This document shows, piece after piece, positions 12,337 to 50,517 of a stretch of 64,000 nucleotides of DNA; position 1 is the stretch's first letter; each line of letters opens with the position of its first letter. The translations under genes were made by a program, and so were the position numbers. The stretch spans positions 62,001 through 126,000 of the IMG/VR virus record IMGVR_UViG_3300024346_000008, one strand, 5' to 3'. Below the pieces are notes generated by a model that was not told the DNA's origin, did no database searches, and was given only the letters and a program-made list of their open reading frames with translations. This stretch comes from a virus.

Positions 12337-13587
12337 TTATTCTGTTTCGGTTTCAATATCCACTGAATTAGTACGTTTTACTAGTTTCATATTATATTCA
12401 TTGACCTTTGGTTCTCTAGGAATTCCCTCTTTCAATACCAAATCTTGCTTAAATAACTTAGTATAGGCAATGTGATGATGTGGACGACCATCCTTGTGCA
12501 TTTCATGGGTTAGAGTAACAATTTTTCCCCAATGCTTCTTTAGTTCATCAAACTTTTTCTGATATCCAGAAGTATTGCCACCTTCATAAATGGTATCCGT
12601 GTTTCCACCACGCATGGTACCCGTAGTTTGTTTTCCACTCAATAACGTATTAAAGTTGACTGTGCACAAATCACCAGTGGACAATACTCGTAGAGACAAA
12701 TCGGTATCTTCGTTGTACGTTCCTCTCCACCGTTCTTCTAATCGGGTGTCCAATAATTCAGAATTGATTAGAATGCAACTATATACTCTTGTGTTTTTTA
12801 TAAATTGACTACGACCTGGTTCTGTCGCAGGAACAAATGACATATACTGACATCCAACCAATCCCAAGTTTTCATATCGGTCACTGAAATCTTCCATGAT
12901 TCTGAAAAATACACCGTCTTTAACTTTCTTCTTTAAATTGTTATTCCACCGATAAAATCCAAGAATATTATCATCGACTACCCAATGCTTTTTGTGACCA
13001 TTCTTAACGGCATGATCCCATACAAAATTTCGAACAGGGATACTACCTCTCTTTAATTCACTAAAGTTTTTAGGAAGTTTTATAATCTTCTTCTTGTCTA
13101 CCTTTGCAGCATACGAATCGTATTCTGCGGGTTCCACGCATATATAAAAATCAATTCCCATTTCTTCAAGCGTGTCAATGGTAAAGGTTTTTTCCCATCG
13201 ACCTTTGGTAATTACATATATCGGATACTTTGGGTAAATTTTATGAGTATACGCATACTCATAATCTCTCAATGGATTTTCATTAAGATCATAATGTACA
13301 TAACGACTTGCGTTATTTTCCTTCAAACCAAACGTCTTATATACTATATTACGTTCCATTTGGTTTTTAACAAACACATTGACTATGCACCGTTCCATCA
13401 GATACGGCGACCATACAAATTCGGGCAGATTGAAATAATGTTCGCATTCCAAATCGTACAAATTATGATTTTTATAATCAAATTCATATGAAAGTGTATA
13501 ATCCCAGAAGTCACCTTCAATAAGCGTATTATTTAAAATGTCAGCAACTTTTTCTTTGTGACTTGTGTGGATTTTAATTATTTCCAT
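12337..13587 (-). CDS. TET-associated-type glycosyltransferase (TAGT-like)
   Basis: A 416-residue protein matching the TET-associated glycosyltransferase family as I know it. It has YPIYVITKGRW (121-131), EPAEYDSYA (152-160), GSIPVRNFVWDHA (181-193), the metal-site-like HWVVDDN (201-207), RWRGTYNEDTDLSLR (286-300) and a GGNTD motif. The family is linked to sugars added to oxidised 5-methylcytosine in phage DNA. The next gene is a DNA methyltransferase, which fits DNA modification. No TET dioxygenase is visible here, so the substrate is open. Confidence 0.82.
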   Translation of the reverse strand: MEIIKIHTSHKEKVADILNNTLIEGDFWDYTLSYEFDYKNHNLYDLECEHYFNLPEFVWSPYLMERCIVNVFVKNQMERNIVYKTFGLKENNASRYVHYDLNENPLRDYEYAYTHKIYPKYPIYVITKGRWEKTFTIDTLEEMGIDFYICVEPAEYDSYAAKVDKKKIIKLPKNFSELKRGSIPVRNFVWDHAVKNGHKKHWVVDDNILGFYRWNNNLKKKVKDGVFFRIMEDFSDRYENLGLVGCQYMSFVPATEPGRSQFIKNTRVYSCILINSELLDTRLEERWRGTYNEDTDLSLRVLSTGDLCTVNFNTLLSGKQTTGTMRGGNTDTIYEGGNTSGYQKKFDELKKHWGKIVTLTHEMHKDGRPHHHIAYTKLFKQDLVLKEGIPREPKVNEYNMKLVKRTNSVDIETETE

Positions 13588-13601: not shown

Positions 13602-14321
13602 TTAAATAGAAATCTGAACCAGATAATACGTTGATGTATATCCGTTTGCATCAAACTTTACGACCGACAATCCCTTTGAACTAATCTGTAAGGTTCCATT
13701 ATTGATTTCCTTATTTGCCATAAGAATTTCACGAAGATAATCGGCAGAGAAACTAATAGGCGCCACCTTTGTAGCTACGTCGGTTGCCACCGTAATAGAA
13801 ATTCTATTGGTGTTATTAGAAGAATGACCAATCACCACTTCGGCAGTCTTATCGTCACCTGAACTCATCACCGTAAATGTTTCCACATCATTCAACGCAC
13901 CCTTTGCCTTCACGAATGTACCAACGAACTTATCATCCAATAGAATAGTAAAATCTACCGCTGGAAGTTTCTTTAACTCCGGTACTGCGGGAATGACAGT
14001 TGCATCAGCAAGTACAAACGTTGCCTTCGTGGAGTTATCCGTCAGATTCAACCCCGTCATCTTACCATTAGCAACACTGGCATTGACTGTAATATTTTCG
14101 TCCAGTACACCTAGAATCGACCGAAGTTTCTTGGTGTCGTATACGCCGAATTCACCTTCGGGAAACTTAATCTGCTCTGCCGTAATTTCAACAAGAACAT
14201 TCTTGTCAGCGGAAATAGTACGCACGGAGAGATTGTCACCGTCTGACTTCAAGGTAACACTCTCACACGAACCACCCAAATTATACTTACTAATAAACTT
14301 TTCTAGCTTTGACTTTTCCAT
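13602..14321 (-). CDS. 45: Sliding clamp (gp45)
   Basis: A 239-residue DNA polymerase processivity factor of the T4 gp45/PCNA type, expected to form a ring around DNA. It opens MEKSKLEKFISKYNL and has the repeated beta-alpha-beta pattern of clamp domains. EGEFGVYDTKKLRSIL lies near 75-90, and the C-terminal strand runs into YYLVQISI. It lies upstream of genes 44 and 62 on the same strand, the usual T4 order with added genes between. Confidence 0.92.
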   Translation of the reverse strand: MEKSKLEKFISKYNLGGSCESVTLKSDGDNLSVRTISADKNVLVEITAEQIKFPEGEFGVYDTKKLRSILGVLDENITVNASVANGKMTGLNLTDNSTKATFVLADATVIPAVPELKKLPAVDFTILLDDKFVGTFVKAKGALNDVETFTVMSSGDDKTAEVVIGHSSNNTNRISITVATDVATKVAPISFSADYLREILMANKEINNGTLQISSKGLSVVKFDANGYTSTYYLVQISI

Positions 14322-15350: not shown

Positions 15351-15686
15351 TTAATTTTTGGGACGATTTAACATCTTTGATAGTTCACTTTGAAACAATG
15401 GTACTACCTTTTGAAGAATACCCTCTACAAAGTCAATCTGTGAGGCACGATATAAATTCTCATCAAATATAACAGAAATATTAATTTTACTAGCAAACGA
15501 GTTGGGGTCAAACACTCTCTCAGCTCTATAATCAAACTTCTTTTTTACTTCTCTATTTAAGTTCTCCCAACGAGCGGATAGTTCATCACGTTCTTTGGTC
15601 AACTTAGTATTATTTTCTTTGAGTAAGGCATTTTGGGCAAGTGCCCGTTCTAATTTTTCCCATATGAAATTGGTTTCTTGTCCCAT
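15351..15686 (-). CDS. Coiled-coil hypothetical protein (111 aa)
   Basis: Residues about 8-50 form a heptad-like helix (LERALAQNALLKENN and following charged repeats), consistent with a coiled coil. The C-terminal half looks globular. The start overlaps the ligase stop as TAATG. Nothing identifies a function. Confidence 0.6.
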   Translation of the reverse strand: MGQETNFIWEKLERALAQNALLKENNTKLTKERDELSARWENLNREVKKKFDYRAERVFDPNSFASKINISVIFDENLYRASQIDFVEGILQKVVPLFQSELSKMLNRPKN

Positions 15687-16786
15687 TAAAACTCTCCTGG
15701 AAAACGGATAGACACCCCGACCGGAAAGATCGGGATGTTATCACGGCTCAGTTCTTGATAGCGAACCGTCAAATATTTACCTACCAATTCCTTACGAGTG
15801 TTGAATAGTTCCGCTCGATTGCTCTGAGTGCCTTCTGGACGGCAATTGAAACGGTTACCGTCATCTGTTTCCAAGATGAAAATAGCAAGCCCTGCATCAG
15901 AGCCAGCACCATCAACAACATCAACAATACGATATTCTGCATCGACAAAATCCTTGAGTTTAAGTAGTGAATACGAACGCTTACCAATTTCATATTCCAT
16001 CGACGGATTACGAATCATGGTTCCTTCAAATCCTTCTGACACAAATTGTGTATGCTGTTTATAGACTTCGGTTTCATCCATACACTCCACCGTCTTAACC
16101 ATAACTACATTTGGTGGGGCGTTATGCATAAGATCAATAATAATCTGCTGACGCATAGCATATGGAAGTTCATTGTCCACGATATCATATACATGATACA
16201 TGAGTAGAGGTGACAGTTCTGGACGATACTTTTTGATAGCCTTCATGCTTTCCTGCAACAACTGATTATTGGGAAGCATCAGTTCACCATCAAGAATAAA
16301 TCCACCCGTATCAAACCGAAGGTGCTGAATCACTTCGGGGATAATTTCTTTGTTGCCCCGACTCCGTGCTTCTGTACCGTTGAACAACATACGCATACCA
16401 TTCAACTTGGGTTGAATATAGGACGGCCATTCCACCTTGTTCATATGATCCTTGAACTTGTGCGCCAACATCGGCATAGGCCAGCTATCTACCTTCTCAC
16501 CTTCCCGATAGAATCCCTTATCCAACTGCTTCTTGATAATAGCATCGAACTCAAAGAACGCCTGTTCTTCACTGTTACGTTCGTTTGCCCGTCCAATGTT
16601 TGTTGGTGCGGCAAAGTACGGTTCAGACGTTTGCTTCTTGGTTTCACGGCCCGTCTTGGTCAACTGATACCATTCGGTCTGTGTGTAGAAATTGGTATCG
16701 TCTTGAAGGATATGCAACCGCCAGAACTTACGGTTACCGGCCTTGTTTTCAGAAATGAGCAGGTCACTACTTTTAATGATTTTCAT
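15686..16786 (-). CDS. ATP-dependent DNA ligase with WGR-like N-terminal domain
   Basis: Seals nicks in DNA. The nucleotidyltransferase motifs are clear: motif I YIQPKLNG with the adenylated Lys near residue 127, then ARSRGNK, FILDGELM, GFEGTMIRNP and LLKLKDF; an OB-fold region ends the protein. Residues about 15-95 (FWRLHIL, then EWYQLTKTGRETKKQT, then FDAIIKKQLDKGF) resemble a WGR domain. The ATG at 16786 is used because the upstream bases encode the small Cys-rich gene; a longer frame from 16846 overlaps it. Confidence 0.92.
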   Translation of the reverse strand: MKIIKSSDLLISENKAGNRKFWRLHILQDDTNFYTQTEWYQLTKTGRETKKQTSEPYFAAPTNIGRANERNSEEQAFFEFDAIIKKQLDKGFYREGEKVDSWPMPMLAHKFKDHMNKVEWPSYIQPKLNGMRMLFNGTEARSRGNKEIIPEVIQHLRFDTGGFILDGELMLPNNQLLQESMKAIKKYRPELSPLLMYHVYDIVDNELPYAMRQQIIIDLMHNAPPNVVMVKTVECMDETEVYKQHTQFVSEGFEGTMIRNPSMEYEIGKRSYSLLKLKDFVDAEYRIVDVVDGAGSDAGLAIFILETDDGNRFNCRPEGTQSNRAELFNTRKELVGKYLTVRYQELSRDNIPIFPVGVSIRFPGEF

Positions 16787-16787
16787 A

Positions 16788-16907
16788 TTAGTTGTTAGAT
16801 TTGCAGGAACACATGCCCTGACACTTCGGGCAATCACATTCACCATAGGAATAGGCCGTACAGCGGCCTGACAACATCTGGAAGTACTTCATACAGTATT
16901 TACACAT
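16788..16907 (-). CDS. Very small Cys-rich protein (39 aa)
   Basis: A 39-residue frame with nine Cys residues, including CKYC at the start and CDCPKC and CSC near the end, as expected for a tiny zinc protein. A GAGGT Shine-Dalgarno sequence lies at the right distance before the ATG at 16907, and the promoter at 16936-16964 is just upstream. Its stop is one base before the ligase ATG. Role unknown. Confidence 0.7.
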   Translation of the reverse strand: MCKYCMKYFQMLSGRCTAYSYGECDCPKCQGMCSCKSNN

Positions 16908-16977: not shown

Positions 16978-17436
16978 TTATTTATTGGATTTAACATATG
17001 CCCCTAGTACAAAGGTAGCGGCAATTAATACCATATTTTTCAATATATATTGACCTTCTAATGTTAATATAAATGGGAAGTATATAAACATTCTTTCTGG
17101 GAAAATGATTAATGGCATCCATGCTCCTATCATTTGCGTCCACAATAGGAACAAGGTAGTGCGTTGAAATATATTACATAGAAATCCTATCCCAATCAAT
17201 GTTTCCCAGACGGCAAGTATTTTAATACTAATATACGATGGAATCATTCCAAAGGTAAGTACATTAATAGTATCAGTTGCTAATGATTCGGCAGGAGATA
17301 CGTTCGGGAAAAACTTCAAGAACCCAAACCAAAAGAATACAATACCAAGAGATATACGCAAGGTATCTAACGCATATCTCTTAAACAACGGTATTAAGTA
17401 TTGGTCTAATTTAGAAGGAAAAGAAGTCAGTCGCAT
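16978..17436 (-). CDS. DoxX-like integral membrane protein (152 aa)
   Basis: Four hydrophobic segments are visible: near residues 25-42, 68-92, 98-118 and 130-148. The phrase SLGIVFFWFGFLKFFP near the first helix is typical of the DoxX/DUF417 group of four-helix membrane proteins. Its ATG at 17436 overlaps the end of the polymerase gene by 26 bases; longer starts would lie deeper in the polymerase gene. Such proteins are rare in phages. It could alter host respiration or redox state, or act in lysis; none of this is shown. Confidence 0.7.
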   Translation of the reverse strand: MRLTSFPSKLDQYLIPLFKRYALDTLRISLGIVFFWFGFLKFFPNVSPAESLATDTINVLTFGMIPSYISIKILAVWETLIGIGFLCNIFQRTTLFLLWTQMIGAWMPLIIFPERMFIYFPFILTLEGQYILKNMVLIAATFVLGAYVKSNK

Positions 17437-19936
17437 TCTGGTTAATTTCTGTTGGGATATTTCCCCACTTAAGAGCAGTATAAAAGTCATCCAACTTATT
17501 CCGCAATTCATTTTCAAATAACGCATCGGTATCAATATACTCCGTAATCATATCCACAATTTGCGGAGGGTCTTGATATCCCTTAATTGCCAATGCATCA
17601 ATGTGCAAAGGATTATCCTTCAGATACACATATTTAATCTTTGCGCCATCGGCAATGGGTTCATATCGTGTTTGAATATTGAAATGCGTCAACAATCTGT
17701 TATACACAATTGCTGCCTTAATATGTGCAGGAGTTCCCTTCTTGAATCTATTAATACCACCGCCGCCCTCACCTGCGGCAAATTGACTAATATTATTTGC
17801 TGAAGTATTTCGTGCCACTTCCAAATAATGACGAGTTTTAATAGATGTTTTCAACGCAAGAATCTTATCATCTAATTCTTGCTTATCTACTCTACCCAAA
17901 ATATCCTTCAACATTTGTGTCATGAACTCCCGAAATGCTTTAGGAAACGATGATCTTACGACATCCAATCCCTTTACAACGAGTTTACTGACATTCTGGC
18001 GGGTTTCCAAGTCATATACCTTATCCAACGCATATCGTTTCTTGGCGACCCAGAATCCCGTCTTGGCGACACTTTCTCCCTTAATGTGGAACTTATGACT
18101 ATCACAATTGAACATACGCTTTGCCATAGAATTATAAAATGTATTCAACGTACTTTCCATTTCATAGGCAATATTAATCGTAGAAGTAAGGTCATCTGTA
18201 CTTCCTTCAACAAACAATGGTTTTGCTGGGAAGTATACCGAGTCAGTGTCAACATATACACAATGATCTTTCTGTTCACCCGTTGCCTTTTCATACTTCT
18301 TATTGATAAACTTTGCAGTAGTCTTAATTACATCTTGTCCCGTCAAAGTTACTGCTGCAGCATTGTCAACGTCATAGAAACGGAATACGGGCAATCCCAA
18401 CACACCATACAATGAATTCAAGAAAATCTTCTGAATGTGCTGACGCTGGTCGTAATATGCTGCTTGGACCTTATCACCTTCATTTGTATACTTCTTCATA
18501 AGATTCTTATATTCTACACGTTTGGCAAACCATTCTTCTAATACCTCTGGAATGATTCCTTTGGCAGTCGTAGTGTATAATACACCGTTAGATGCAATCG
18601 TAAGATTATTTTCTGTTAGGAAATTAACAAATGCGTCATATTCCAATTCCACCGTCGTATCATTACCCATTTCTTGTACAACATAGGCAACAATTTCTTT
18701 ACGGAAATGTTTTTCCATATCAAAGTTCAAGACCTTAGCAATCTTGGTTTCTGGACTGATATTGAGGCTCATAATAATCGATGGATATAGCGATTGTAAG
18801 TCCAATGAATAAATCCAATCATACAATCCAGGTACAGGTTCTTGAACATATGCCCCCGCAAACCCTTCTTCTCCACGATCCAATGCCTCCATCTTTTCCT
18901 TGCTATCCTTTGGTTTATCGGTCACGATAATTCCCTTACGATGTAGATAGGTAACGATAGTTCCTTCAAGGAATCTGGAACTCATACCATAATCCTCATA
19001 CGGCACATGTCCAATGTGACAAATACCACGCACCAAATCGATCAGATTCAGTTTCTTATCTAGATCAACAATAATGCGCACGTCCTGTAAGTTATACTCA
19101 ATGAATTTATCCAAATCATCTCGGAACAAATCATCAAGAGAACCTTCGTAGTCTACCTTGCCCATACCCACTTCCAATCGTCCAATCGTATCAAGACGAT
19201 AGTTGGGTTGTTGGGTATATGTGAACTTCTTATACAGGTCCAAATAATCCAACGACGATACGCCAGCAATTTTATATCGTTCCATGCGTTCAGAATACTT
19301 TACTCGACCAATAGGACTCAATCGATTTGCCGTACCTTTTCCACATACTTGACGAATACGATTATACAGATAGGGCACATCAAATCCGTTACTGTTCCAT
19401 CCACTGATAATGGTTGGACAGATTTGTTCATATGAATTAATAAACTTATGGAGTAGGTCTACCTCATCGGCACAAAAGTGTACGGTTGCTTCGTCCGATT
19501 CACGGTCAGTATACAACTGGCGTTTATCCAACACAAAGACTTCATACTTCTTTACAAGAGGATCATATAACGCAATCGATGTAATTTCATTGTTTGGATT
19601 CTCAGTATTGGGAATGCCATTTTCCATTGACACCTCAATGTCAAAGAATAATGTGATATTTCCCTCAGACGAGGTATCTTCGTTTAGATATAAATCAGTT
19701 AGTACGCGAGTTTCCTTTGGAAGATCGCTCTCAAATACATTAGGATTTCCACGAATGAAACGTCTCGTTTTACTGAGGCGTTCTCCCGTCATACTGATAT
19801 ATTTACCCTTGGGGTCACGAACATATGCGTAATTAAAGTCGGAGAGCGGGAGTGTAATAAGTCCCTGTGCATCATCCCAAATATAAACTGTTTGTTCGTC
19901 GGACGTTGAATCGATAAAAATATTTTGATACGCCAT
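17411..19936 (-). CDS. 43: Family B replicative DNA polymerase (gp43)
   Basis: An 841-residue polymerase with an intact proofreading exonuclease. Exo I is FFDIE (D99, E101), Exo II is GWNSNGFD (N181, D186) and Exo III is YNLQD (Y281, D285). Polymerase motif A is SLDLQSLYPS (378-386 region), motif B is KIFLNSLYG (503-511) and motif C is YVDTDS (561-566). All catalytic Asp residues are present. It is driven by its own promoter at 19967-19995. It copies the phage genome with the gp45 clamp. Confidence 0.97.
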   Translation of the reverse strand: MAYQNIFIDSTSDEQTVYIWDDAQGLITLPLSDFNYAYVRDPKGKYISMTGERLSKTRRFIRGNPNVFESDLPKETRVLTDLYLNEDTSSEGNITLFFDIEVSMENGIPNTENPNNEITSIALYDPLVKKYEVFVLDKRQLYTDRESDEATVHFCADEVDLLHKFINSYEQICPTIISGWNSNGFDVPYLYNRIRQVCGKGTANRLSPIGRVKYSERMERYKIAGVSSLDYLDLYKKFTYTQQPNYRLDTIGRLEVGMGKVDYEGSLDDLFRDDLDKFIEYNLQDVRIIVDLDKKLNLIDLVRGICHIGHVPYEDYGMSSRFLEGTIVTYLHRKGIIVTDKPKDSKEKMEALDRGEEGFAGAYVQEPVPGLYDWIYSLDLQSLYPSIIMSLNISPETKIAKVLNFDMEKHFRKEIVAYVVQEMGNDTTVELEYDAFVNFLTENNLTIASNGVLYTTTAKGIIPEVLEEWFAKRVEYKNLMKKYTNEGDKVQAAYYDQRQHIQKIFLNSLYGVLGLPVFRFYDVDNAAAVTLTGQDVIKTTAKFINKKYEKATGEQKDHCVYVDTDSVYFPAKPLFVEGSTDDLTSTINIAYEMESTLNTFYNSMAKRMFNCDSHKFHIKGESVAKTGFWVAKKRYALDKVYDLETRQNVSKLVVKGLDVVRSSFPKAFREFMTQMLKDILGRVDKQELDDKILALKTSIKTRHYLEVARNTSANNISQFAAGEGGGGINRFKKGTPAHIKAAIVYNRLLTHFNIQTRYEPIADGAKIKYVYLKDNPLHIDALAIKGYQDPPQIVDMITEYIDTDALFENELRNKLDDFYTALKWGNIPTEINQNATDFFSF

Positions 19937-23330: not shown

Positions 23331-24716
23331 TCACTCTTCTGAAAAATCATCGTGGAGTTCAGATAATTTCTTTGCAAGAGTCTTTTTCAACATACCTTCT
23401 CCCGCCTGCATTTGCTTCTTCAACAGAATGCCCTTGGAAGAATTTTCATCATAAATTTCAATCTTTCCAAGACCAGTGTTCATATATACGGGCAACGTAA
23501 CACCATCAACACCGAATCGATTCTTCATAACGTGCGCACGGCCCGTGTGATTTGCTTTATCTTCCAGTTTCCGCGACAATGAAATCACCAAGTCGGCGGT
23601 CATAATTTTCTGATAGGATTCAGCAATCTTATCGGCCTGAATAACTTCATCTTGAATACTACTGCGTTGGGTCTGTGAAGCAGTCCAACATGGAATTCCC
23701 ATTTCACCAGACATACCACGAATTTCTTCGTAGATTGCTCCAAGTTCTTGGTGTCGAGCGTCAACACGATCCACTGATCGCATAAGGTCTGCGTAATCAA
23801 TCAACATCAAATCGGGCTTCAGTTTATTACTGATCAGATGGTCAATGTGTGCCCGAATGGTATGAACCGTAATAGAACGTGCTGGATAATACTTAATGAT
23901 AATATCACCCGTTACACCCTCTACTGCGTCACGAACCATCTGAGGATGCTGTGGAACATTTCCAGGTTCAATACCAGTAAAGATGGTATCATATCGAAGT
24001 CCAACATAATTCTCGTTCAACTCCAAGGTATAATACACCACACGTTTTCCGGCCTTTGCTGCGTTTGCTCCAAGTGTAGCAAGTGCCCAACTCTTACCAA
24101 TACCAGACGGTGCGGCAATAACACCCAGTTCACCAGCACCCAATCCACCGCCAATCAATTGGTCAATAGAATCCCATCCCGTAGGAACTACGATACGAGA
24201 AGTACCAGATAGTCGAATACCAATATCCTCTCTCCAATTATGACCAATATTACGAGGTTGACCAGCCTTCATTGCCCCATCAATCAAACTCTTAATTTCA
24301 CCATACTGTCCCATCTGCAGCAAATCGACAGAACGAATAATAGCAGATTTAATTGCTTGATTTTTTGCAAAGTCTAGAAAACTATCACGAATATATTCCA
24401 AATCATCGTCATTCTTTCGTTGGAATGCCGCTCTCAACTGGTCTTTAATGGCAATCTTTAACACATCATCATTAACCACATCCAACTTCACCTTAAATAC
24501 TTCTAGCGTGGGTAACGCCTTATAATCGGCAAAATAATCTATGGTCGTATCAACAATCCACTGACCCGCATTGGATTCAAAGAATTTAGGATTTAATACA
24601 TCAAGTGATTGCTGTAAAAATTCCGTGGACGACAACAAACTCGCCAATACTTTCGCCTGAAATGTTGGTCCGTATTTTGCGAGATTGTCTACTATCGTAT
24701 CATGCTGTGTTGTCAT
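23331..24716 (-). CDS. 41: Replicative DNA helicase (gp41/DnaB family)
   Basis: A 461-residue RecA-fold helicase with an N-terminal helical domain (about 1-150), then Walker A APSGIGKS (202-209) and Walker B LMLIDYADL near 305. The start overlaps the end of the 5' exonuclease gene by 17 bases. It should form a hexamer that unwinds DNA ahead of gp43. No gp61-like primase is seen in this window. Confidence 0.93.
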   Translation of the reverse strand: MTTQHDTIVDNLAKYGPTFQAKVLASLLSSTEFLQQSLDVLNPKFFESNAGQWIVDTTIDYFADYKALPTLEVFKVKLDVVNDDVLKIAIKDQLRAAFQRKNDDDLEYIRDSFLDFAKNQAIKSAIIRSVDLLQMGQYGEIKSLIDGAMKAGQPRNIGHNWREDIGIRLSGTSRIVVPTGWDSIDQLIGGGLGAGELGVIAAPSGIGKSWALATLGANAAKAGKRVVYYTLELNENYVGLRYDTIFTGIEPGNVPQHPQMVRDAVEGVTGDIIIKYYPARSITVHTIRAHIDHLISNKLKPDLMLIDYADLMRSVDRVDARHQELGAIYEEIRGMSGEMGIPCWTASQTQRSSIQDEVIQADKIAESYQKIMTADLVISLSRKLEDKANHTGRAHVMKNRFGVDGVTLPVYMNTGLGKIEIYDENSSKGILLKKQMQAGEGMLKKTLAKKLSELHDDFSEE

Positions 24717-25752
24717 TATTAAATCTGCTAAGAGGAATAAAATTCTGCGATAACCAACTATCGTAGTTGGGGAATGCTTGTAGTAATCTAGACTTCATCA
24801 TCAACTTTGTCAAGTCTACCTTCCGCAATGAGGCTTGTGTCGTCTGGAATCTATTGACTACCTTCATTTTAGCATCAATCGACATGATACTTTCGTGGAG
24901 ATTCATTAATGTAATATTTCGTTCAACTATATCTTCATTATTCAGAATATTCTCAATCATCTTGGGAACCTTCTTTATATTTGCATATTTATTGCGAATC
25001 ATGTCTACCGAAATTTCTGCTGTTGGGTCTGCAATTTCTGGTACATACTTTTTCAAGGTAGCTTCCCCAACACCCTTCACTCCATCAATATTATCACTCT
25101 TATCACCATTTAAGGCACGGAAGAAGTGAAAGTGTTTTGGATGAATACCGTAATCTTCCAAAATTACTTGGTCACTAAATGTTTTCTTCTTGATAGGATT
25201 ATATACCTTAATATTTTCTGAGGCAAGTTGGAAGAAATCCTTGTCGGTGGAATAAATAATACTATCTCCACCTTCCGCAGTAACCAACTGCGATAGATAT
25301 GCAATCACATCATCTGCTTCTACATTGTCTAATGCAAAAATAGTAACGGGCAAACATTCCAGCATTTCAACCAGCGACACCAACTGCCATTTCATATTTT
25401 CTTTTTCTTGTTCGTCCGTCGTTAGATCATAACTCCGATTCAATCGAACCGGAGGTTTGCGATTTGCCTTATACTGCGGGTAAATCTTTCTACGACTTTG
25501 GCTCCCACCCTTTCCATCAAAAACAATGATGGTCCGGGTGGGCTTGAACGTGCGAATAGCAAGTCCCAAACTCTTAAAGAATCCAATCATACCACCGATG
25601 TGATTGCCATCTTCATCCATTGAAGGAACTGCTGAATATGATCGGATGAATAGGTTCATAGCATCAACCAACAATACCCGACTGTTATATGTCATGCCTT
25701 GCGGGTCTTCTTCAAACTTCATATTGTGAAAAATATCTTGCAGATTAGCCAT
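24700..25752 (-). CDS. 5'-3' exonuclease (FEN/PIN-type, RNase H role)
   Basis: A flap-endonuclease-like enzyme that removes RNA primers from lagging-strand fragments. The visible metal-site segments are LLVDAMNLFIRSYSA, VFDGKGGSQSRRKIYPQYKANR (in part), VEADDVIAY and STDKDFFQL, followed by the helix-hairpin-helix DNKSDN-like GDKSDNIDGVKGVGEATL. The ATG at 25752 overlaps the upstream stop; a longer frame from 25818 is unlikely. It lies between the helicase and UvsX genes. Confidence 0.92.
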   Translation of the reverse strand: MANLQDIFHNMKFEEDPQGMTYNSRVLLVDAMNLFIRSYSAVPSMDEDGNHIGGMIGFFKSLGLAIRTFKPTRTIIVFDGKGGSQSRRKIYPQYKANRKPPVRLNRSYDLTTDEQEKENMKWQLVSLVEMLECLPVTIFALDNVEADDVIAYLSQLVTAEGGDSIIYSTDKDFFQLASENIKVYNPIKKKTFSDQVILEDYGIHPKHFHFFRALNGDKSDNIDGVKGVGEATLKKYVPEIADPTAEISVDMIRNKYANIKKVPKMIENILNNEDIVERNITLMNLHESIMSIDAKMKVVNRFQTTQASLRKVDLTKLMMKSRLLQAFPNYDSWLSQNFIPLSRFNNDNTA

Positions 25753-26056
25753 GTAGGATTTCTTTATTGGTTGTTGTAATAGTAGGCGGACAGTTACGAG
25801 TATGTGTTTGTGTGCCACCAGTTGTCCATGTGCCCATCAAGTTTGGTGGATTAACTGTGTAGGTGTGCACAACCTCCCCGTCACGCTTTAAGGGTCCGGT
25901 GGGTTTCAACTGAACCTGAGACTCTGTTTGCATTAACAACCGACGAAGTTCTAATTCGAAATCGTCGCGGTACTGCCCAATAGTGGCGGAGCTACTGTCC
26001 CATGACTTATCATACGCAGACAATGCAATCTGTACAATATCTTCTGGATTATTCAT
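25745..26056 (-). CDS. Hypothetical protein (103 aa)
   Basis: An acidic helical first half is followed by a Thr- and Pro-rich tail (PTGPLKRDGEVVHTYTVNPP, then TTGGTQTHT). It overlaps uvsX by 8 bases upstream and the exonuclease gene downstream, so it is coupled to recombination genes. No domain is recognised. Confidence 0.65.
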   Translation of the reverse strand: MNNPEDIVQIALSAYDKSWDSSSATIGQYRDDFELELRRLLMQTESQVQLKPTGPLKRDGEVVHTYTVNPPNLMGTWTTGGTQTHTRNCPPTITTTNKEILHG

Positions 26057-27191
26057 CTTCAGTTGCCGCCATAATACTTACATCTTCAGGATCAAATTCA
26101 CTCTGATACTTCATAATCAGTGAATCACAAATCTCACTGTAGAGTACTTGCTTCCGAATAGGATCTGCATCTAAGAACCCTTGAAAGTCCTTGGATTGAA
26201 ACTTCGTTTCTTCTCCCGTAATAGGATCGACATACGCATACCATGCGCCGGCCTGCTTGATCATTTTGTTTTCCTTCAACACCTTCAACCAACTACCCAA
26301 ATCGTCAATACCACGATTAAAGTAAATTTCAAATTCTGCCGTGCGATGCGGCGGTCCAAGACGATTCTTGACAACATTTGCCTTCACCTTCACACCAATC
26401 ACATCACCACTGGAATTACTAATCTTACCGAGCAACGACAATCGAAGACGAGTTGATGCATGGAACGCAATTGCCTTACCACCCGAAGTCGTCCACGGAT
26501 CAGAGAATGCCATTGCATTCATCTTCTGACGAAGCTGATTGGTGAACACCAGTGCAATCCGTTCACGGCCCAACAATCCCGTAATCTTACGCATTGCCTT
26601 ACTGATAATAATTGCCTTATCAGTTGCATATCCATCCTTCCCGAAGTCTGCTTCCATTTCCTTCTTGGTGGATGCGGCAGCAACGGAGTCTACCACGATG
26701 GTAACCAACTTATCCCGTTTCTTGGGGTCTTTACGCACTTCTTCAATAATGGTCGTAATTGCATCGAAGATTTCTTCAACCGTCTGCAACTGGACATATA
26801 CCAACTTATTCATATCGATGCCGACTGCCTTAAAGAACTCCGCATTGACTGCGGTTTCGGTGTCAATAAGAACCCCTACCCCACCCCTTTTCTGCGTGTT
26901 TGCAATCATCTGTGCCCCTATTAGCGACTTACCAGACCCCTCCAACCCAGTAAGTTCGGTAATACGTCCAACAGCAATTCCCCCGTTCGGACGGTTACTA
27001 ATTGCCACATCCAACATGGTTGCGCCCGTTGAAATGAAATCAGTAAAATCGGTTGGCGTTGATTCTCGTCCATCAAGGAAGAAAGCAACTTGGTCACTAT
27101 CTTTGTTCATCTTATTCAAGGAGATTGCAATAAGTTGTGCCAACTCATCACGATCTGGTTCTTGAATAACCTTCTTATCTGTTTTTGCCAT
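26049..27191 (-). CDS. uvsX: UvsX/RecA-family recombinase
   Basis: A 380-residue strand-exchange ATPase. Walker A is GLEGSGKS (82-89) and Walker B lies in VTIVVDSVAAAS; the RLSLLGK and NRLGPPHRTAEF segments are RecA-core regions. It has an acidic C-terminus. An AGGA site precedes the ATG, and the promoter at 27235-27263 with a palindromic operator-like site is directly upstream. It drives recombination-dependent replication with gp32. Confidence 0.93.
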   Translation of the reverse strand: MAKTDKKVIQEPDRDELAQLIAISLNKMNKDSDQVAFFLDGRESTPTDFTDFISTGATMLDVAISNRPNGGIAVGRITELTGLEGSGKSLIGAQMIANTQKRGGVGVLIDTETAVNAEFFKAVGIDMNKLVYVQLQTVEEIFDAITTIIEEVRKDPKKRDKLVTIVVDSVAAASTKKEMEADFGKDGYATDKAIIISKAMRKITGLLGRERIALVFTNQLRQKMNAMAFSDPWTTSGGKAIAFHASTRLRLSLLGKISNSSGDVIGVKVKANVVKNRLGPPHRTAEFEIYFNRGIDDLGSWLKVLKENKMIKQAGAWYAYVDPITGEETKFQSKDFQGFLDADPIRKQVLYSEICDSLIMKYQSEFDPEDVSIMAATEDE

Positions 27192-27269: not shown

Positions 27270-28064
27270 TTAGTTAAATACTTCGTCAAACTCGTCAATC
27301 ATATCCTTGACTGACGTTGACTTAAGTTCTGCTGACTTAGCTGCCGTGGGTGAGGTGGGCTTTGTAGTAACTTCTTCCTTCACTGGAGCAGCAGTGGGAG
27401 GAGTCTTGGCCGAATCTGGGTCGAGGTATCGTTCCAGAGCAACCTTCAATTCTTCGTATGAGGGTTCCTTGAAAATTGAACGAATGTCGGGCTGATCGGT
27501 GAGAAGCTTCTGAATCTTATCTGCAGAATCCGCAAGTGGCGTCTGATTCGGCTTAGGACGAACCATCGTCTTTGCAAAGTTGGTGTCACTCTTTTCCTGC
27601 GGGATATATTCTACCACAATGTCACGGCCGTTCTGTACGTCAGTGATATCGCCGTAATCGGGGTCAGAGATAATAGACAACAGTTCGGTATATACAATCT
27701 TACCAAACGACATGAAACGAACGCCCTTATCTTCTTCACCACGAACAATGATCGGAACGAATGTACGAAGCTTTGGACGGAACGGACGTGCCTGCTGCCA
27801 ATCATCCTTAGAACCACCTGCCTGCAGTGCGTCTGCAAATTCTACGATGGGGTCACGGTTGCCGTTTGAGGTAGGAGAAAGATGCGTCTTATTACCGAGA
27901 TAATGAAAATATAGTTCAACGAACGGATTTTCCTTGTTATCCTTCCACGGAACAATACGAATAACCGTCTTACCTTCCGTGGGCTTCCATAGCGCATCGC
28001 TACGGTCGTTCTGACGAGTGAACTGGTTGAGCTTAGACTTGAGTGCTGAAATGTTAATTCCCAT
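27270..28064 (-). CDS. 32: Single-stranded DNA-binding protein (gp32)
   Basis: A T4 gp32-type protein that coats single-stranded DNA and coordinates the replisome. It starts MGINISALKSKLNQF, has the core strands TVIRIVPWKDN and FVPIIVRGEEDKGVRFMSFG, then a Pro/Ala/Thr linker and the acidic tail DMIDEFDEVFN used for partner binding. No zinc-binding Cys set is seen, unlike T4 itself. The AGAGGT site fixes the ATG at 28064, making 264 residues; a longer GTG start at 28118 lies in the promoter leader. Confidence 0.92.
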   Translation of the reverse strand: MGINISALKSKLNQFTRQNDRSDALWKPTEGKTVIRIVPWKDNKENPFVELYFHYLGNKTHLSPTSNGNRDPIVEFADALQAGGSKDDWQQARPFRPKLRTFVPIIVRGEEDKGVRFMSFGKIVYTELLSIISDPDYGDITDVQNGRDIVVEYIPQEKSDTNFAKTMVRPKPNQTPLADSADKIQKLLTDQPDIRSIFKEPSYEELKVALERYLDPDSAKTPPTAAPVKEEVTTKPTSPTAAKSAELKSTSVKDMIDEFDEVFN

Positions 28065-28112
28065 ACGTGTGTACCTCTTAGAGTTTAGAATGTTTTGTTT
28101 AGTGAGTGTATT

Positions 28113-28136
28113 GCCCACTTTGTAAAGGTAGTGGGC
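28113..28136. promoter_or_regulatory. Palindromic operator-like site at the gene 32 promoter
   Basis: Inverted repeat GCCCACT (28113-28119) and AGTGGGC (28130-28136) around the -10 box. The core, CCCACT-N10-AGTGGG, is shared with the site at the uvsX promoter, including the inner TGTAAA. One regulator may bind both. Confidence 0.65.
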
Positions 28137-28163: not shown

Positions 28164-28571
28164 TTATAATTCTATGATATCGGATAATTTAGTATTAACT
28201 ACTTTAAGTTTACCGTATGCGGTAACCAATACAGAATTTTTTAATTCATCCCAATTAATTCGAAATGATTTATCTAACACGCCATTGTTTTTCAATTCAA
28301 TCAATTTATTAATTGCATTAATTGTGTAAATTGTATTTGTTTGTTTTTTTCTATGCACAGAAATTGTTGACGCAGGTGGTAATACATTTGAATGTGTTTT
28401 TGTAATATTATATGTTAATACCAATTGATTAGCATCTTCTATATTTTCTAATAGATATAATTTATTAAATACTAATACATACGAATTTTTTATAATATCA
28501 ATGGTGGCGTCTAACTCATCTACGGATGTGAACGTACACAGTAATTGCGTTTCAGTATTCATATATAACAT
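28164..28571 (-). CDS. Conserved T4-like hypothetical protein (135 aa)
   Basis: An alpha/beta protein with IYTINAINKLIELKNNGVLDK and INWDELKNSVLV, a pattern I associate with a small protein encoded beside gene 32 in T4-like environmental phages. There is no signal peptide or catalytic motif. It has its own promoter at 28599-28627. Two ATG codons, at 28571 and 28562, could be the start. Confidence 0.75.
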   Translation of the reverse strand: MLYMNTETQLLCTFTSVDELDATIDIIKNSYVLVFNKLYLLENIEDANQLVLTYNITKTHSNVLPPASTISVHRKKQTNTIYTINAINKLIELKNNGVLDKSFRINWDELKNSVLVTAYGKLKVVNTKLSDIIEL

Positions 28572-28641: not shown

Positions 28642-29508
28642 TTACTCCGAAATTGCTCTTCCTTTCAACATCTCCCAATCTTTCTCTGGACGGTCGATTG
28701 TAATATTTCTTGTCCATGCCGCATCTAATACCGGAGTGGGTACATTAAGTTCTCGCGCTACATGACGAATTGCTGAAATATCTTTGGGAAAACACGTACC
28801 GCCAAATCCATTATGACCGTCTGGTCCTGGTACTTGCCAGTGCGATTTACCCATACGAGAATCTTCTCGTACTGTATGTTGCATGGTTTGCCAATCAACT
28901 CCAAGTGCATTAGCAATATTTTCCATTTCATTTGCAAATGCTACCTTGGTGGCAAGAAATGTATTACATACATACTTATACAATTCAGCTTCTTTTGCAC
29001 TCACAACCTGTGCATATTTAACGGAGTTTACAACACTTTTAATTTCGTCTAGCACATCGTGTACCGCACCATCAAACTGTCGGCCGGCACAATGTCCCAA
29101 TAACATAACGTCTTGATTTAAATAATCATTTTTATAATTTGCTTCCGTTAAAAACTCCGGATTAAACATTATAGCATGTCGTGACGGATTTGTTTCTTGT
29201 AATCTATTGGTCGTATTAGGTGGCACCGTGGACTTGATAATTATTATCTTTGGAATCTCACTTTTACAAATATCGTTTACTACCGATTCAACAATAGATG
29301 TATCACATTCACCAGTAGATTTCATTGGCGTTGGAACGGCAACATATATTAGATCGACCAACCCTACCAATTCTTGTAGAGATTTACATGACGGATTTGT
29401 TGCGGGATTTAAATCAAATGTATGCACTGTTCGATGCTTTAAGGTATATGCATTTAATACAGCACCGCCAACATATCCTAACCCAACTATTCCTATTGTA
29501 AAACTCAT
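28642..29508 (-). CDS. UDP-glucose/nucleotide-sugar 6-dehydrogenase, short form
   Basis: Oxidises a nucleotide sugar (UDP-glucose to UDP-glucuronate in the best-known case) with NAD. The Rossmann start GIVGLGYVGGAV (6-17), VAVPTPM near 57-62, FNPEFLTE near 115-122 and catalytic C239 in GGTCFPKD are intact. It is only 288 residues, so it lacks the usual C-terminal UDP-binding domain. It could supply sugars to the glycosyltransferase cluster at 42878-50472. Its ATG overlaps the upstream gene as ATGA. Confidence 0.9.
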   Translation of the reverse strand: MSFTIGIVGLGYVGGAVLNAYTLKHRTVHTFDLNPATNPSCKSLQELVGLVDLIYVAVPTPMKSTGECDTSIVESVVNDICKSEIPKIIIIKSTVPPNTTNRLQETNPSRHAIMFNPEFLTEANYKNDYLNQDVMLLGHCAGRQFDGAVHDVLDEIKSVVNSVKYAQVVSAKEAELYKYVCNTFLATKVAFANEMENIANALGVDWQTMQHTVREDSRMGKSHWQVPGPDGHNGFGGTCFPKDISAIRHVARELNVPTPVLDAAWTRNITIDRPEKDWEMLKGRAISE

Positions 29509-30797
29509 AACCTTATCTCCTTAATATTATTGTATGTAGTTCCAGAATACACACGTACTGGGAATTTTTTGTTTTCTTCTAAAATATCTTGTATCTGATG
29601 CAGGATATTGATGTCCATAGTTTGCATATCCAACAGTATACTGTCATATGTATACAACACCAAATGATTTGTTGTATTTTTTATGAGATTAATAATACGA
29701 GTTAATTTTGGAAGTGTTCTCACCATTTCTAATGATTGTACATAATAATTAAACAGTTTATTTGCACTGGGCGTGTCCACATTTACCGTGATGCCACTTG
29801 GTAGTGTTATCGAAGTTGCAGACGTATATTGTTTTCTATGTTGATGAATCTTTTCAAACAATTCAAAATTATAGGTTTCGGTACTTGAGCCATACATGAC
29901 TTCAAAGGTTCGTCGTTTACTTTCCGTATACATGTCTTCGGTAATGTCCGACGTATTAAAGTAGACCTTCGCAAGTTCGGTATGAATGGATTGTTCACTG
30001 GGTAATATTACTCCCAGTTCATTTGCCATCAATCTTAGATGATATGCTTCAAAGTCCATTTGTACCAGTGACCCAGACGGATATCTACTAATGAAACTAT
30101 CACGGGAACCATCCGACTTATTTAATGCGGCAAAGTTTATCCCTCCAAATCTATTACTCGGACGACCTGTAGCAGTGTATGGATTATATTCTGTATACAC
30201 CATATTATCTTTGAACGCACGTTTTGCATCGGATGAAAAATGTTGTGATAATAATGTTCTGTCTACGCACAGTCCCGCAGATTCAATATCCTTCAATGTA
30301 GACAACAATTCGTACATATACTCGTATTGTGACGGATCATATAATGAAAAGTATAAAATAAATTTATGTAGTATCGTATTATACTTTTCACCAATTGAAC
30401 CCCATGTTGTTAATGGAATAATTCTATTTACGTGACGCATATTGTGAAACATGTTGTGTGTTTCACGAATATACGAGGTAAATATATCTTCTAATGGTGG
30501 GATGGTCATTTGATGAATATACGCAATTGCTGATACGTCCATACATGGTGTATTCATTACTTTACTGTTTGCCGTAAAACACAGTGCATTTCCAACCGGC
30601 ACTTCAAATTGCGGCGCATCATCATGTGAAATGGATACAGTAAAACTTTCACCGTCCATGAATGTTATGCACATGCACAACAATTCATTTTCCATAACAT
30701 GGTAATATACATCACGAAAAATCGGGGTGCAAATATGCACTTCCCGATCCATTCGTAGCTTCAACTCGTTATATTGTTCGTAACTATTAATAACCAT
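29505..30797 (-). CDS. Divergent family A DNA polymerase-like protein
   Basis: A 430-residue protein whose second half follows the Pol I palm and fingers: TATGRPSN (208-215) for the T-G-R segment, motif A QMDFEAYHLRL (246-256, D248), motif B KRRTFEVMYG (294-303), NYYVQSLEMV (350-359) for the QGxAAD helix, and motif C as TYDSILLD (383-390, D385) in place of V-H-D-E. Both metal-binding Asp residues are kept. The first 170 residues may be a degenerate exonuclease-like domain. It coexists with gp43. A repair, primer-extension or replication role is possible. Confidence 0.72.
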   Translation of the reverse strand: MVINSYEQYNELKLRMDREVHICTPIFRDVYYHVMENELLCMCITFMDGESFTVSISHDDAPQFEVPVGNALCFTANSKVMNTPCMDVSAIAYIHQMTIPPLEDIFTSYIRETHNMFHNMRHVNRIIPLTTWGSIGEKYNTILHKFILYFSLYDPSQYEYMYELLSTLKDIESAGLCVDRTLLSQHFSSDAKRAFKDNMVYTEYNPYTATGRPSNRFGGINFAALNKSDGSRDSFISRYPSGSLVQMDFEAYHLRLMANELGVILPSEQSIHTELAKVYFNTSDITEDMYTESKRRTFEVMYGSSTETYNFELFEKIHQHRKQYTSATSITLPSGITVNVDTPSANKLFNYYVQSLEMVRTLPKLTRIINLIKNTTNHLVLYTYDSILLDMQTMDINILHQIQDILEENKKFPVRVYSGTTYNNIKEIRL

Positions 30798-31205
30798 TTA
30801 TACCTCTTCGGCGAACCAATACTCCAGATAACTTGTAATATACTTCAAGAGGCCACCAAAAGTCAAGTCCACCTCTGATACAACTGTACGATTAGTATCT
30901 TCTACTCCGTACACATATATTCCATTATTTTTTTGAAATGTCTGTTTTTTCCCCACAATTTGCCATTTTATTTTTGCCGTAACAAACCGTGGATTTTCTG
31001 TAAATTCTTCATATTGACTATTATCTACCTCAACAATAAAATTTTTATCGGTAACTTGTCGTACAAAATATCGTATAATAAATCCATTCTTCGCATCGGG
31101 CTGGGTAACAATAGGTAATGACTGTGTAGGCATTTCATCTAAAATACGAGTTAACCGTTGTTCATCGGTTTTATAAAGTTTCTGTAATAATGTCGTATCT
31201 ATCAT
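30798..31205 (-). CDS. Conserved hypothetical protein next to baseplate genes (135 aa)
   Basis: A soluble alpha/beta protein with FIVEVDNSQYEEFTENPRFVT and a beta-rich centre. A similar pattern occurs in a T4-like environmental-phage protein of unknown role encoded near tail genes. Its ATG overlaps the stop of the large baseplate gene as ATGA, so it is probably made with the structural proteins. Confidence 0.68.
   Translation of the reverse strand: MIDTTLLQKLYKTDEQRLTRILDEMPTQSLPIVTQPDAKNGFIIRYFVRQVTDKNFIVEVDNSQYEEFTENPRFVTAKIKWQIVGKKQTFQKNNGIYVYGVEDTNRTVVSEVDLTFGGLLKYITSYLEYWFAEEV
30837..30866 (-). promoter_or_regulatory. Possible promoter within a gene
   Basis: On the minus strand: TTGACT (30866-30861), an 18-base spacer, TATATT (30842-30837), about 40 bases before the family A-like polymerase ATG. 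Both boxes match the other promoters, but the site lies inside the upstream gene and the spacer is one base longer. Confidence 0.5.
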
Positions 31206-34200
31206 GGCAATGTCTGTGTTGCGGTGGGTATGGCACTAAACTCACTCTTTGCAATAGCTTCTTTCCATTTTTTCCCAAGATAATTAAATCGTGCATGTAT
31301 TTTGGTAGTCCAACCGTCAGTACCGATATTATCTTCAATGCTGATTATTTGGAATGCCCCAAACGCTTTATAGAACGTAGGAATTCTATCAATCCAAAAT
31401 AATTCTCCTACACGTAATCCAGAAACGCCCGGCATAGTTAAATCTGCACTAATACTTAATGCACCAGGTGACGCACCAAACGCATTTGCATCTGCTCCGT
31501 TAGCGGTGTCGGCCATAGCAGCAACCATGTACTCAGGAAACACTTCTATATATCTGAATAAACTTTGTAATCCAAAAAATTCTCGTTGTTTATCTTCGAT
31601 TGTTTTATTAATTTCTTGTAATTTTGCAGTTGATTGATTTAATAACGATTGTTGTTTTGCACACTCATTACACTGCGCATCGGTTGGTCGATTTGCAGCA
31701 GTAGCTGCTTCGTTGGTAGGACCGGTAGTTGGGTCGGGGATTACTACCGCATTCCATTCTATGTGGATGTGGTTACCTGGAGCAACATTAAACTCATCAC
31801 GAATTTCATATCCATTGTATGTAAAGTTACGAGCACTTGCGCCGGTCTTTCCCCAATATTGTAATATTTGTTCAGCATTTGTGGGATTGTGTACTGGTAT
31901 ATCTATAGCTTGATTCGTATAATGTGCAGAACCATTCGAATGTACTCCAACCTCATTATATCCCTTTTCTCCAAATATGTTATTCTGCGTTACCTTAAAT
32001 TCATTTGCGTGAAGGACTCCCTTAGCGTCTGGTAGGTTAGTCCATGTTGCCGCTTTAGCAATATACGCATTTATATCTGTCCGTACTTGGTCCACTGTCT
32101 TTGGTGCAGCGCCCGGTACTGGGTCACGAGTATCGCCATACTTTCCACTTGTAAGTGGAATACATTTATTACATATGTCGTTATTCTTGTCAAGATATCC
32201 CTTCGCCAATGTTTGTACTGCTGCCAAATCTGTATTTTTATCGAACGTCACCGCTGCTAAATCTGTACCATTTGCTTTATTTGAAGTACCGGCAGTTTGT
32301 GCAGTTGTTTGTGTATTTGCGTCACCACATATTCCGTTTGCTTTTAACATGGCGTCACGTTCAGTTTTTGGTAGTACCGTCAAATCTGGTCCTTGTACAA
32401 ACGCACTATATCTTTTATTGTCGCCCGTGCCTACCGTGCCCATCAATGAAGTAATTGCAAACATTTCGCGCATTGCATCGTATGGACTAGATATTTTTGG
32501 AGATTTTGCATAATCAACATCTTCTGCCTTCACCGGTGCGTTAGCAGCAACTGTTTCTGCTTTTATTTCTTCAGTGGTCTTACCGGTATTTGCTACATTT
32601 TGCATATCGGCAGGTTGCACTAATCCCAATGTAGCAATTTGCGAGAACATTAATTTCGGTAACGACAAATCTACCGAACAATCAATTAGTTCCGATCCCA
32701 CCAACTGCCCAAGTTCATTTACTCGTACATATTTGTTGAATACATGAACGTCATTTATAAACTTAGACACCGCTCTATCTGAACTATCACGGAAGTTAGA
32801 ATCCACCACCATATAACTATATGGATGTCCCGAGCCGGTTATTGGATGAGCAATATCCAACGTTAATTGCCAATAGTTTAACGTTGCGGCATTCATACGT
32901 TCTAATAAATTCGTAATACCACGCAGTATGGTATTACCGCTCAGCATACTTTCTATGATGGCTTTATGATTTAACCATACTCCTGCACTTAATAATCCCC
33001 GGTCTTTCTTATCAGCAACGTCCTTAACCTTGGAAATAGAGTTTTCAAATAATGTTTTCCCAGCGGTATCTTCGGTGGGGTCACCGTTATAAAATCGTTT
33101 TGTTTGGTCATTTTTTGCATAAAATATGCCATCCGATCCCGGTGGTTTATATTGTGGATTCTTTTCTGCTGCTTGTGCTGCTTTTTCATTCACAATAATC
33201 ATAGTACCAGGATTAACCGACCGCAAAAATTCATTCATACCAACAAAAGATTCCATTGGATCGTCAATATATGGTTTTTTGCCTAAGTTGGTATTTGATC
33301 GATTTTCATCGGTTGCATAGGGTAATAATATTCCAAGTTTATCCAATTCAGATTGTTGTAATACGGATGAGAAAATAGATTTAATGTCTTTATTTATTAT
33401 TACATTAACAAAAAATCTCCATGTCACAAAGTATGCATCTTCAGTAAATCCATCAGAGTTTTGATTGACATTTGGGTTCGGGTCAGTTGGCGTAGGTTCT
33501 CCTGCCGTTTTATTTCCATGTGGAATAAATTGTACGTGACTTTTCCACTCTCCATTACCGTTCATGGTATTATCTAATGTGGTTTTAAAATTTTTACCTC
33601 CCGTCGTAGTATCAGAAAAATATGAAAATACACTATTAGTATCACGGGAACAAAAATATCTTGCCGATGGGTCTTTTGCAGGAGTTACGGTATTTTTTGT
33701 GGAGTATGCCCACGCATCTTCTGATGGTCCTACAATTTTTACCGTGCAATTAAATGACCCATCAGAATTGGATTTAACACTAAAATTTGCAACTCGACCA
33801 AACATCCACATATATTGGCCTTCTGATTTGTACGCATACTCATTAAGAATTTCTTCCAACCCAATTTGATTCATGGACAACTTTGCAAGCAACTGCTTTA
33901 ATTTAGGTCTATCGTGCCACGGAAACAAATAATCGGCAACGTTTGCACGTTCACCAATGCTCGGTGATAATTCTGGTGCAAACTGTTGCCCCCATTCCAA
34001 TACCATCCCCACACCAGGTACTAAAAATGTTTTATGTAATGTTTCCAATTGAGATAACGACGGCACCGAAATTTCTAATTGTCCATGTGCCAACAACCCA
34101 TTTTTATTTAGTCCAATAGTTACTTTCGTAATACCGGGCGGCGGAATTCGTATAAACTCGTTAGTACTAAATGTGTTAGCTTTCAAATCAAATATACGAG

Positions 34201-34522
34201 AATTCATTACATTTTTGTTCGATGCATATACGCGTGCATTAGTACCTTTTTCAGTGTACGTATACCCGACTAATGGCATATCTCCATCAACCGATGAATA
34301 TATATCCTCATATTTTACATCTTCATTAAACGCATGTAACCCCAACGTAAATCCAATATTACCGTCACCCATATCGATTTTACTTAAATCAAGTGTCGTT
34401 GTTGCTTTTATGAACGGCATGGCAACTTGTACGGTATTATTTAATTCAGACCGTGCATCTAAAATACGTCGTATATTTTTATTTATAACTTTGTAGTCAA
34501 AAGACCCTTTATCGTGTGCCAT
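31202..34522 (-). CDS. Large baseplate protein with embedded M15-like peptidase domain
   Basis: At 1106 residues this is the largest baseplate-region protein. The first 250 residues have phage tail features (GVGMVLEWGQQ, NVADYLFPWHD). Around residues 835-925 lies a domain resembling zinc D,D-peptidases of the M15/hedgehog type: HSNGSAHYTNQAIDI (His and Asp ligands) and GNHIHIEW (His ligand). A coiled stretch (about 945-985) and a final beta domain follow. In this position a cell-wall peptidase could open peptidoglycan during infection, like the lysozyme part of T4 gp5. The structural role comes from context. Confidence 0.75.
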   Translation of the reverse strand: MAHDKGSFDYKVINKNIRRILDARSELNNTVQVAMPFIKATTTLDLSKIDMGDGNIGFTLGLHAFNEDVKYEDIYSSVDGDMPLVGYTYTEKGTNARVYASNKNVMNSRIFDLKANTFSTNEFIRIPPPGITKVTIGLNKNGLLAHGQLEISVPSLSQLETLHKTFLVPGVGMVLEWGQQFAPELSPSIGERANVADYLFPWHDRPKLKQLLAKLSMNQIGLEEILNEYAYKSEGQYMWMFGRVANFSVKSNSDGSFNCTVKIVGPSEDAWAYSTKNTVTPAKDPSARYFCSRDTNSVFSYFSDTTTGGKNFKTTLDNTMNGNGEWKSHVQFIPHGNKTAGEPTPTDPNPNVNQNSDGFTEDAYFVTWRFFVNVIINKDIKSIFSSVLQQSELDKLGILLPYATDENRSNTNLGKKPYIDDPMESFVGMNEFLRSVNPGTMIIVNEKAAQAAEKNPQYKPPGSDGIFYAKNDQTKRFYNGDPTEDTAGKTLFENSISKVKDVADKKDRGLLSAGVWLNHKAIIESMLSGNTILRGITNLLERMNAATLNYWQLTLDIAHPITGSGHPYSYMVVDSNFRDSSDRAVSKFINDVHVFNKYVRVNELGQLVGSELIDCSVDLSLPKLMFSQIATLGLVQPADMQNVANTGKTTEEIKAETVAANAPVKAEDVDYAKSPKISSPYDAMREMFAITSLMGTVGTGDNKRYSAFVQGPDLTVLPKTERDAMLKANGICGDANTQTTAQTAGTSNKANGTDLAAVTFDKNTDLAAVQTLAKGYLDKNNDICNKCIPLTSGKYGDTRDPVPGAAPKTVDQVRTDINAYIAKAATWTNLPDAKGVLHANEFKVTQNNIFGEKGYNEVGVHSNGSAHYTNQAIDIPVHNPTNAEQILQYWGKTGASARNFTYNGYEIRDEFNVAPGNHIHIEWNAVVIPDPTTGPTNEAATAANRPTDAQCNECAKQQSLLNQSTAKLQEINKTIEDKQREFFGLQSLFRYIEVFPEYMVAAMADTANGADANAFGASPGALSISADLTMPGVSGLRVGELFWIDRIPTFYKAFGAFQIISIEDNIGTDGWTTKIHARFNYLGKKWKEAIAKSEFSAIPTATQTLP

Positions 34523-50472: not shown

Positions 50473-50517
50473 TTATATAACCTTTTATACTAGTGGAAGT
50501 GATTAATATTTAATCTA

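Follow-up and report, generated by a model that had tools for sequence, protein, structure and literature searches.

A thumbless relative of the family A DNA polymerases, divPolA1, was named by Yutin et al. (2024, Virol J 21:200; PMC11348598) from 14 phages including Flavobacterium phage immuto. As published, it has a truncated thumb, an inactive exonuclease domain and conserved catalytic residues, it occurs in addition to a regular DNA polymerase (DNAP), and its gene lies in a replication neighbourhood. Involvement in replication is the only function proposed in the published text, whose wording does not discuss substituted dNTP-site residues (PMC11348598). The same source describes divPolA2 (barbavirus, vibriophage type; AUR84708) as another second, thumbless phage PolA without 3′–5′ exonuclease, which has a different N-terminal domain and different motifs and a variable gene context (PMC11348598).

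We analysed a stretch of 64,000 nt, hereafter the window, which comprises positions 62,001–126,000 of the IMG/VR record IMGVR_UViG_3300024346_000008. The ORF at 29505–30797 (minus strand) encodes a protein of 430 aa that belongs to the published divPolA1 and is not a new kind, as every divPolA1 character that could be tested is present: homology to immuto (tblastn against MW353175-7, E 1e-36, 70% of the query covered), a second, regular DNAP, a truncated thumb, replaced exonuclease residues, retained palm residues and downstream replication genes. The immuto protein nests among the family in a palm tree that includes only six full-length PolAs and whose support values were not relied on. Membership of divPolA2 was also considered and was rejected (hhalign probability 0.1% against AUR84708). 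An earlier sequence-only reading had proposed a second, divergent family A polymerase alongside an intact gp43, and this is now borne out by structure, profile alignment, family conservation and the co-occurrence of a replicase in 15 of 16 long records.

Fold and active site of the 430-aa protein

Searches of PHROG, Pfam and the PDB with the single sequence were weak, and family profiles were needed. The Pfam profile PF00476, which the sequence-only reading had named as a check, does match the lone sequence (E 2.1e-6), and its score of 27.3 bits lies below the curated cut-off of 34.3, which some relatives reach; no PDB chain gave a credible score for the lone query. The profile of the relatives matches Klenow (E 1e-7), and hhalign of the family against full-length PolAs gave an E-value of 3.5e-18 across residues 196–422 and placed all of the Pol I core residues, so that D248, K294, F298, Y302, N350, Q354 and D385 correspond to D705, K758, F762, Y766, N845, Q849 and D882 of Pol I. 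From the family and profile alignments and the PolA panel, motif A (DFEAYHLRL, D248–L256) lies at 30030–30056, motif B (the O helix, Y290–G303) at 29889–29930 and motif C (Y384-D385-S386 to D390) at 29628–29648, all on the minus strand. H253 of motif A takes the steric-gate position of E710, and in motif B K294, F298 and Y302 are kept and Y290 replaces R754. The three motifs are thus as first described (QMDFEAYHLRL, KRRTFEVMYG and TYDSILLD), with D248 and D385 as the metal Asp residues; a TATGRPSN block upstream of them, which resembles TATGRLSS of Pol I, had been overlooked. A chance motif match is ruled out by the fold, the profile and the family conservation.

The AlphaFold2 model of the protein, for which 58 family members were the input (mean pLDDT 93.6, pTM 0.91), contains a Pol I-type palm, and in this palm both metal Asp residues of motifs A and C are placed by the model and the profile alignment. 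The outcome that the sequence-only reading had named as refuting it, a predicted structure lacking a polymerase palm, thus did not occur. Foldseek against the PDB returned family A polymerases on top (Pol theta, Pol nu, Klenow and the apicoplast Pol; for Klenow 1kfd, E 1.2e-15 and TMq 0.75), and against a viral library it returned full-length phage PolAs. Judged by its predicted fold, the identity of the ORF as a genuine family A polymerase is well supported. The N-terminal domain (residues 1–158; 30324–30797, minus strand) was modelled separately with a pLDDT of 94.1 and is predicted to be a shortened DEDD 3′–5′ exonuclease-like fold without the catalytic DxE; its best Foldseek matches are nearly all DEDD exonucleases (RRP6, RNase D, WRN and the Klenow exonuclease domain), at weak E-values of 0.003–0.08. 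The former description of the N-terminal half as unlike Pol I therefore went too far. Because the DxE of exonuclease motif I (D355, E357) aligns with P25 and F27, a placement that comes from a global alignment with low column confidence and concerns motif I only, proofreading has very probably been lost. The thumb slot (residues 172–212; 30162–30284, minus strand) could be delimited from the alignments and family lengths: 39 residues separate E172, the Glu of IExxG, from R212, the Arg of TGR, and since 22–40 residues in all relatives fill a slot that holds 126 in E. coli Pol I, the thumb is gone. Its helices are absent from the AlphaFold2 model as well.

Conservation was scored over 62 non-redundant family members. 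D248, K294, Y302 and D385 are invariant (62/62), as are the equivalents of Lys758, Phe762, Tyr766 and Gln849. The site nevertheless departs from the canonical Pol I active site, in that E710, R754, H881 and E883 are H253, Y290, Y384 and S386 in the window protein, and the changes of E710 to His, R754 to Tyr and H881 to Tyr are found in 62/62 members; across the family, either Ser or Ala follows the Asp of motif C. Six full-length PolAs retain Glu, Arg and His at the first three positions, and Ser, Ala or Gln also occur in them after the motif C Asp, so Ser is not special there. Hence, where YDS in place of HDE had been called unusual, this holds for the Tyr (Y384) and does not hold for the Ser, a residue that phage PolAs commonly have at this place (for example HDS in CRP-3 and Troll). 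The real oddities of the protein are Y384, H253, Y290 and the absent thumb. The dN/dS of the gene against its relatives is 0.10–0.13 (about 0.12), which indicates that it evolves under purifying selection. Because E710 and R754, with which Pol I contacts the dNTP, are replaced in all members, the activity of the predicted polymerase could be weak or of another kind.

Distribution and gene neighbourhood

Relatives are encoded in at least 582 stretches of environmental virus contigs according to a profile scan, and a protein-level scan of IMG/VR gave 22 relatives at 45–100% identity; the recovered full-length ORFs are nearly all about 410–450 aa. Most of the contigs that carry relatives are fragments, and absences therefore carry little weight. 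Among 50,697 phage records, divPolA1 occurs only in immuto (four records), Microcystis phage Mel-JY01 and the uncultured 484-kb phage LR756508, compared with 2,613 records matched by gp43 of the window phage. A cellular or prophage origin was rejected, since among 84,980 genomes only two Bacteroidota MAG contigs match, one of them partial, and these are probably phage contigs in bins. In the Mel-JY01 record (PP395634.1), the gene annotated ‘DNA polymerase I’ (55792–56832) matches a 5′–3′ exonuclease, and the true PolA-like gene nearby (50397–51623) is annotated hypothetical.

The family B replicase gp43 is encoded at 17411–19936 (minus strand; phrog_262, E 5e-189) with the motifs DIE, SLYPS and DTDS intact. 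The sequence-only reading had placed the polymerase beside a complete gp43; the completeness stands and the adjacency does not, as gp43 is about 9.6 kb away. A regular replicase accompanies divPolA1 in 15 of the 16 long records (PolB in 14, a full-length PolA of 778 aa in immuto), and the sole record without one is a 99-kb fragment. Immuto (NC_055915.1), which is T4-like by gp20, gp23 and its tail genes, carries this full-length PolA and no family B polymerase, and represents a replicase exchange in which divPolA1 was kept. In LR756508.1, PolB matches are divided between two ORFs, one of 1022 aa and one of 625 aa, with about 4 kb between them (260623–266900), and gp43 is apparently split there.

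Downstream of the polymerase, and likewise on the minus strand, are the genes of the single-strand DNA-binding protein gp32 (27270–28118; PF08804, phrog_1192), the recombinase UvsX (26049–27191; PF00154, phrog_97), a 5′–3′ exonuclease (FEN) that resembles the 5′ nuclease domain of Pol I (24700–25818; PF02739, PF01367) and a DnaB/gp41-type replicative helicase (23331–24716; phrog_19). An ATP-dependent DNA ligase (15686–16846; phrog_114) and a gp45-like sliding clamp (13602–14321; phrog_223) are encoded on the same strand, and the window phage encodes both clamp loader subunits. The order polymerase, 28164-type gene (named after its position in the window), gp32, uvsX, FEN and helicase is conserved throughout the family, with all of these genes in one direction, and in loci with enough flank gp32 is retained in 45/48, uvsX in 43/45 and FEN in 40/44. 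Pairwise polymerase distances correlate with those of UvsX (Mantel r 0.67), gp32 (0.88), FEN (0.87) and helicase (0.84), the highest of 999 permuted values being <0.2, and for this reason divPolA1 appears to be inherited together with the replication module. A T4 gp61-type primase (phrog_47) was found in 10 of the 16 divPolA1 records, including immuto, Mel-JY01 and the 484-kb phage. The six records where phrog_47 was not found include fragments and the window phage's own record, which may be incomplete. The window also holds a match to beta-glucosyl-HMC-alpha-glucosyltransferase (phrog_842) at 12337–13587 (minus strand), adjoined by a weak DNA methyltransferase match at 11107–12336, and DNA base modification is possible in this phage.

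The 28164-type gene (28164–28571, minus strand), downstream of divPolA1, encodes a protein of 135 aa with an invariant HRKK..NT.Y..N block and with no functional match in Pfam or PHROG; its counterpart in immuto is gp002. It accompanies the polymerase in 66/66 loci with enough flank, always between divPolA1 and gp32, and the phage records that contain it are exactly the six with divPolA1. In a reverse scan from this gene, 43 of the 47 loci having 3 kb upstream contained the polymerase; of the other four, one has it further upstream and three are on short contigs. These counts make the small protein a candidate partner. In the window, a short UDP-glucose dehydrogenase-like protein is encoded between the two genes (28642–29508, minus strand); this insert occurs in 16 loci only and was not found at the loci of other relatives. 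Just upstream of the polymerase, another conserved protein of 135 aa (30798–31205, minus strand; 64/68 loci) has its stop abutting the polymerase start, and its gene overlaps by 4 bases the end of a large gene, which is probably a tail gene. This spacing suggests a coupling of divPolA1 to late rather than replication genes; the polymerase may lie at the end of a tail-like operon and be expressed late. The large gene (31202–34522, minus strand; 1106 aa) has a peptidase M15-like signature, SxxHYxxxAxDI ... HIHIEW, toward its C-terminal half, and its product is perhaps a tail-associated cell-wall hydrolase.

Possible roles of a thumbless second polymerase

Our main reading, to which we give a probability of about 0.5, is that divPolA1 is an accessory, template-directed polymerase of low processivity that fills gaps together with gp32, UvsX and the 5′ nuclease. 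The protein combines a dead, shortened 3′–5′ exonuclease domain with an intact palm and intact fingers. Lacking a thumb, it would act distributively, with only a few nucleotides added each time it binds, and because of this it would be suited to filling short gaps and not to copying the genome. Such gaps would lie on gp32-coated DNA, and filling would follow the removal of RNA or damaged DNA by the 5′ nuclease of the cluster and precede sealing by ligase, so that divPolA1, 5′ nuclease and ligase would amount to a Pol I split into separate genes. It could also act at recombination intermediates made by UvsX, and the processes served would be Okazaki maturation and recombination or repair. The conserved, co-directional gene cluster, the gene history shared with the replication genes, and the ligase and clamp of the genome speak for this role. 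T4 achieves Okazaki maturation without a divPolA1-like enzyme, which counts against it, as do the replaced dNTP contacts and the spacing that points to late genes. From the computed fold, the conserved Asp, Lys and Tyr residues, the loss of thumb and proofreading site, the purifying selection and the coexistence with a full replicase we infer a role in which repair, gap filling and bypass are not separated by any of these computations.

The main rival, which we consider possible and clearly less probable, is a specialised recombination or lesion-bypass polymerase that extends UvsX D-loops or copies across damage at which gp43 stops; distorted primer ends would be tolerated by an active site that is open for want of a thumb and by the missing proofreading. 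The absence of both exonuclease site and thumb, the neighbours gp32 and UvsX, and structural matches to Pol theta and Pol nu, which act in end joining and bypass, are consistent with it, although Klenow matches too and gap filling fits the context equally well. The losses at the E710, R754 and E883 positions and of the thumb could instead mean that the protein has little or no catalytic activity and plays a structural part, as a subunit of the replisome or one that binds DNA. If it were dead, however, some of the metal Asp and the Lys758, Phe762, Tyr766 and Gln849 equivalents should have been lost, and all of them are invariant in 62 relatives; we regard this reading as unlikely. His at the steric gate and Ser or Ala in motif C, changes partly shared with single-subunit RNA polymerases, might point to an rNTP polymerase that makes or extends RNA-containing primers in place of a primase. 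His is still bulky, however, and because most divPolA1 genomes also carry the T4-type primase (10/16 records), primer synthesis is highly improbable and primase replacement was rejected. Least credible of all is divPolA1 as the main replicase: its published context looks more like a replication locus than the context of the regular DNAP does (PMC11348598), but the window has an intact gp43, clamp and clamp loader, processive synthesis is improbable for an enzyme that lacks a thumb, and the regular DNAP in 15/16 long records led us to reject it.

A bolder extension of the gap-filling reading is that divPolA1 is a two-part enzyme, in which the 28164-type protein would bind the polymerase and stand in for its lost thumb or provide processivity, so that the two would form a split family A polymerase for short-patch synthesis. 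The idea comes from the constant linkage of the small gene (66/66 loci) and its occurrence in the phage collection only with divPolA1; a plainer reading is that a single phage clade simply has the two among its core genes, and we think the two-part enzyme distinctly unlikely.

To the published description of divPolA1 the present analysis adds how large the family is, which substitutions are invariant in it, that the gene is under purifying selection, that a primase co-occurs and that a 135-aa gene is linked to it. Since a second polymerase is maintained by purifying selection in a common, little-cultured group of T4-like phages, the textbook picture of the T4 replisome, in which gp43 carries out all synthesis, may fail for a large share of the T4-like phages in nature. 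Moreover, divPolA1 would be a natural minimal family A polymerase, with His at the gate, Tyr for Arg754 and the thumb lost, whose activity, sugar selectivity and processivity are open to direct test, and the always-linked small gene provides a concrete candidate partner for it.

Comparison with known polymerases

The closest described system is immuto gp001, a homologue of about 430–440 aa in which the thumb is likewise truncated, the exonuclease residues are replaced and the palm catalytic residues are kept; in both phages there is a second DNAP in the genome and the same replication genes lie downstream. The two proteins are only about 27% identical, and the window phage pairs divPolA1 with gp43, whereas immuto pairs it with a full-length PolA. 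With Klenow of E. coli Pol I, the window protein shares the fold (TMq 0.75), the domain order and the equivalents of D705, K758, F762, Y766, N845, Q849 and D882, but it is thumbless, its fingers are shortened and its exonuclease domain is short and dead. It further differs from E. coli Pol I in the changes of E710 to H, R754 to Y, H881 to Y and E883 to S, and in that the 5′ nuclease is not fused to it but is a separate gene nearby. Among other phages, Rhodothermus phage RM378 has a split polymerase. Phage T7 gp5 and the full-length phage PolAs have thumb and exonuclease domains and act as replicases; the window protein has the family A palm in common with them, and where the full-length phage PolAs keep the standard dNTP-site residues Glu and Arg, it has H253 and Y290.
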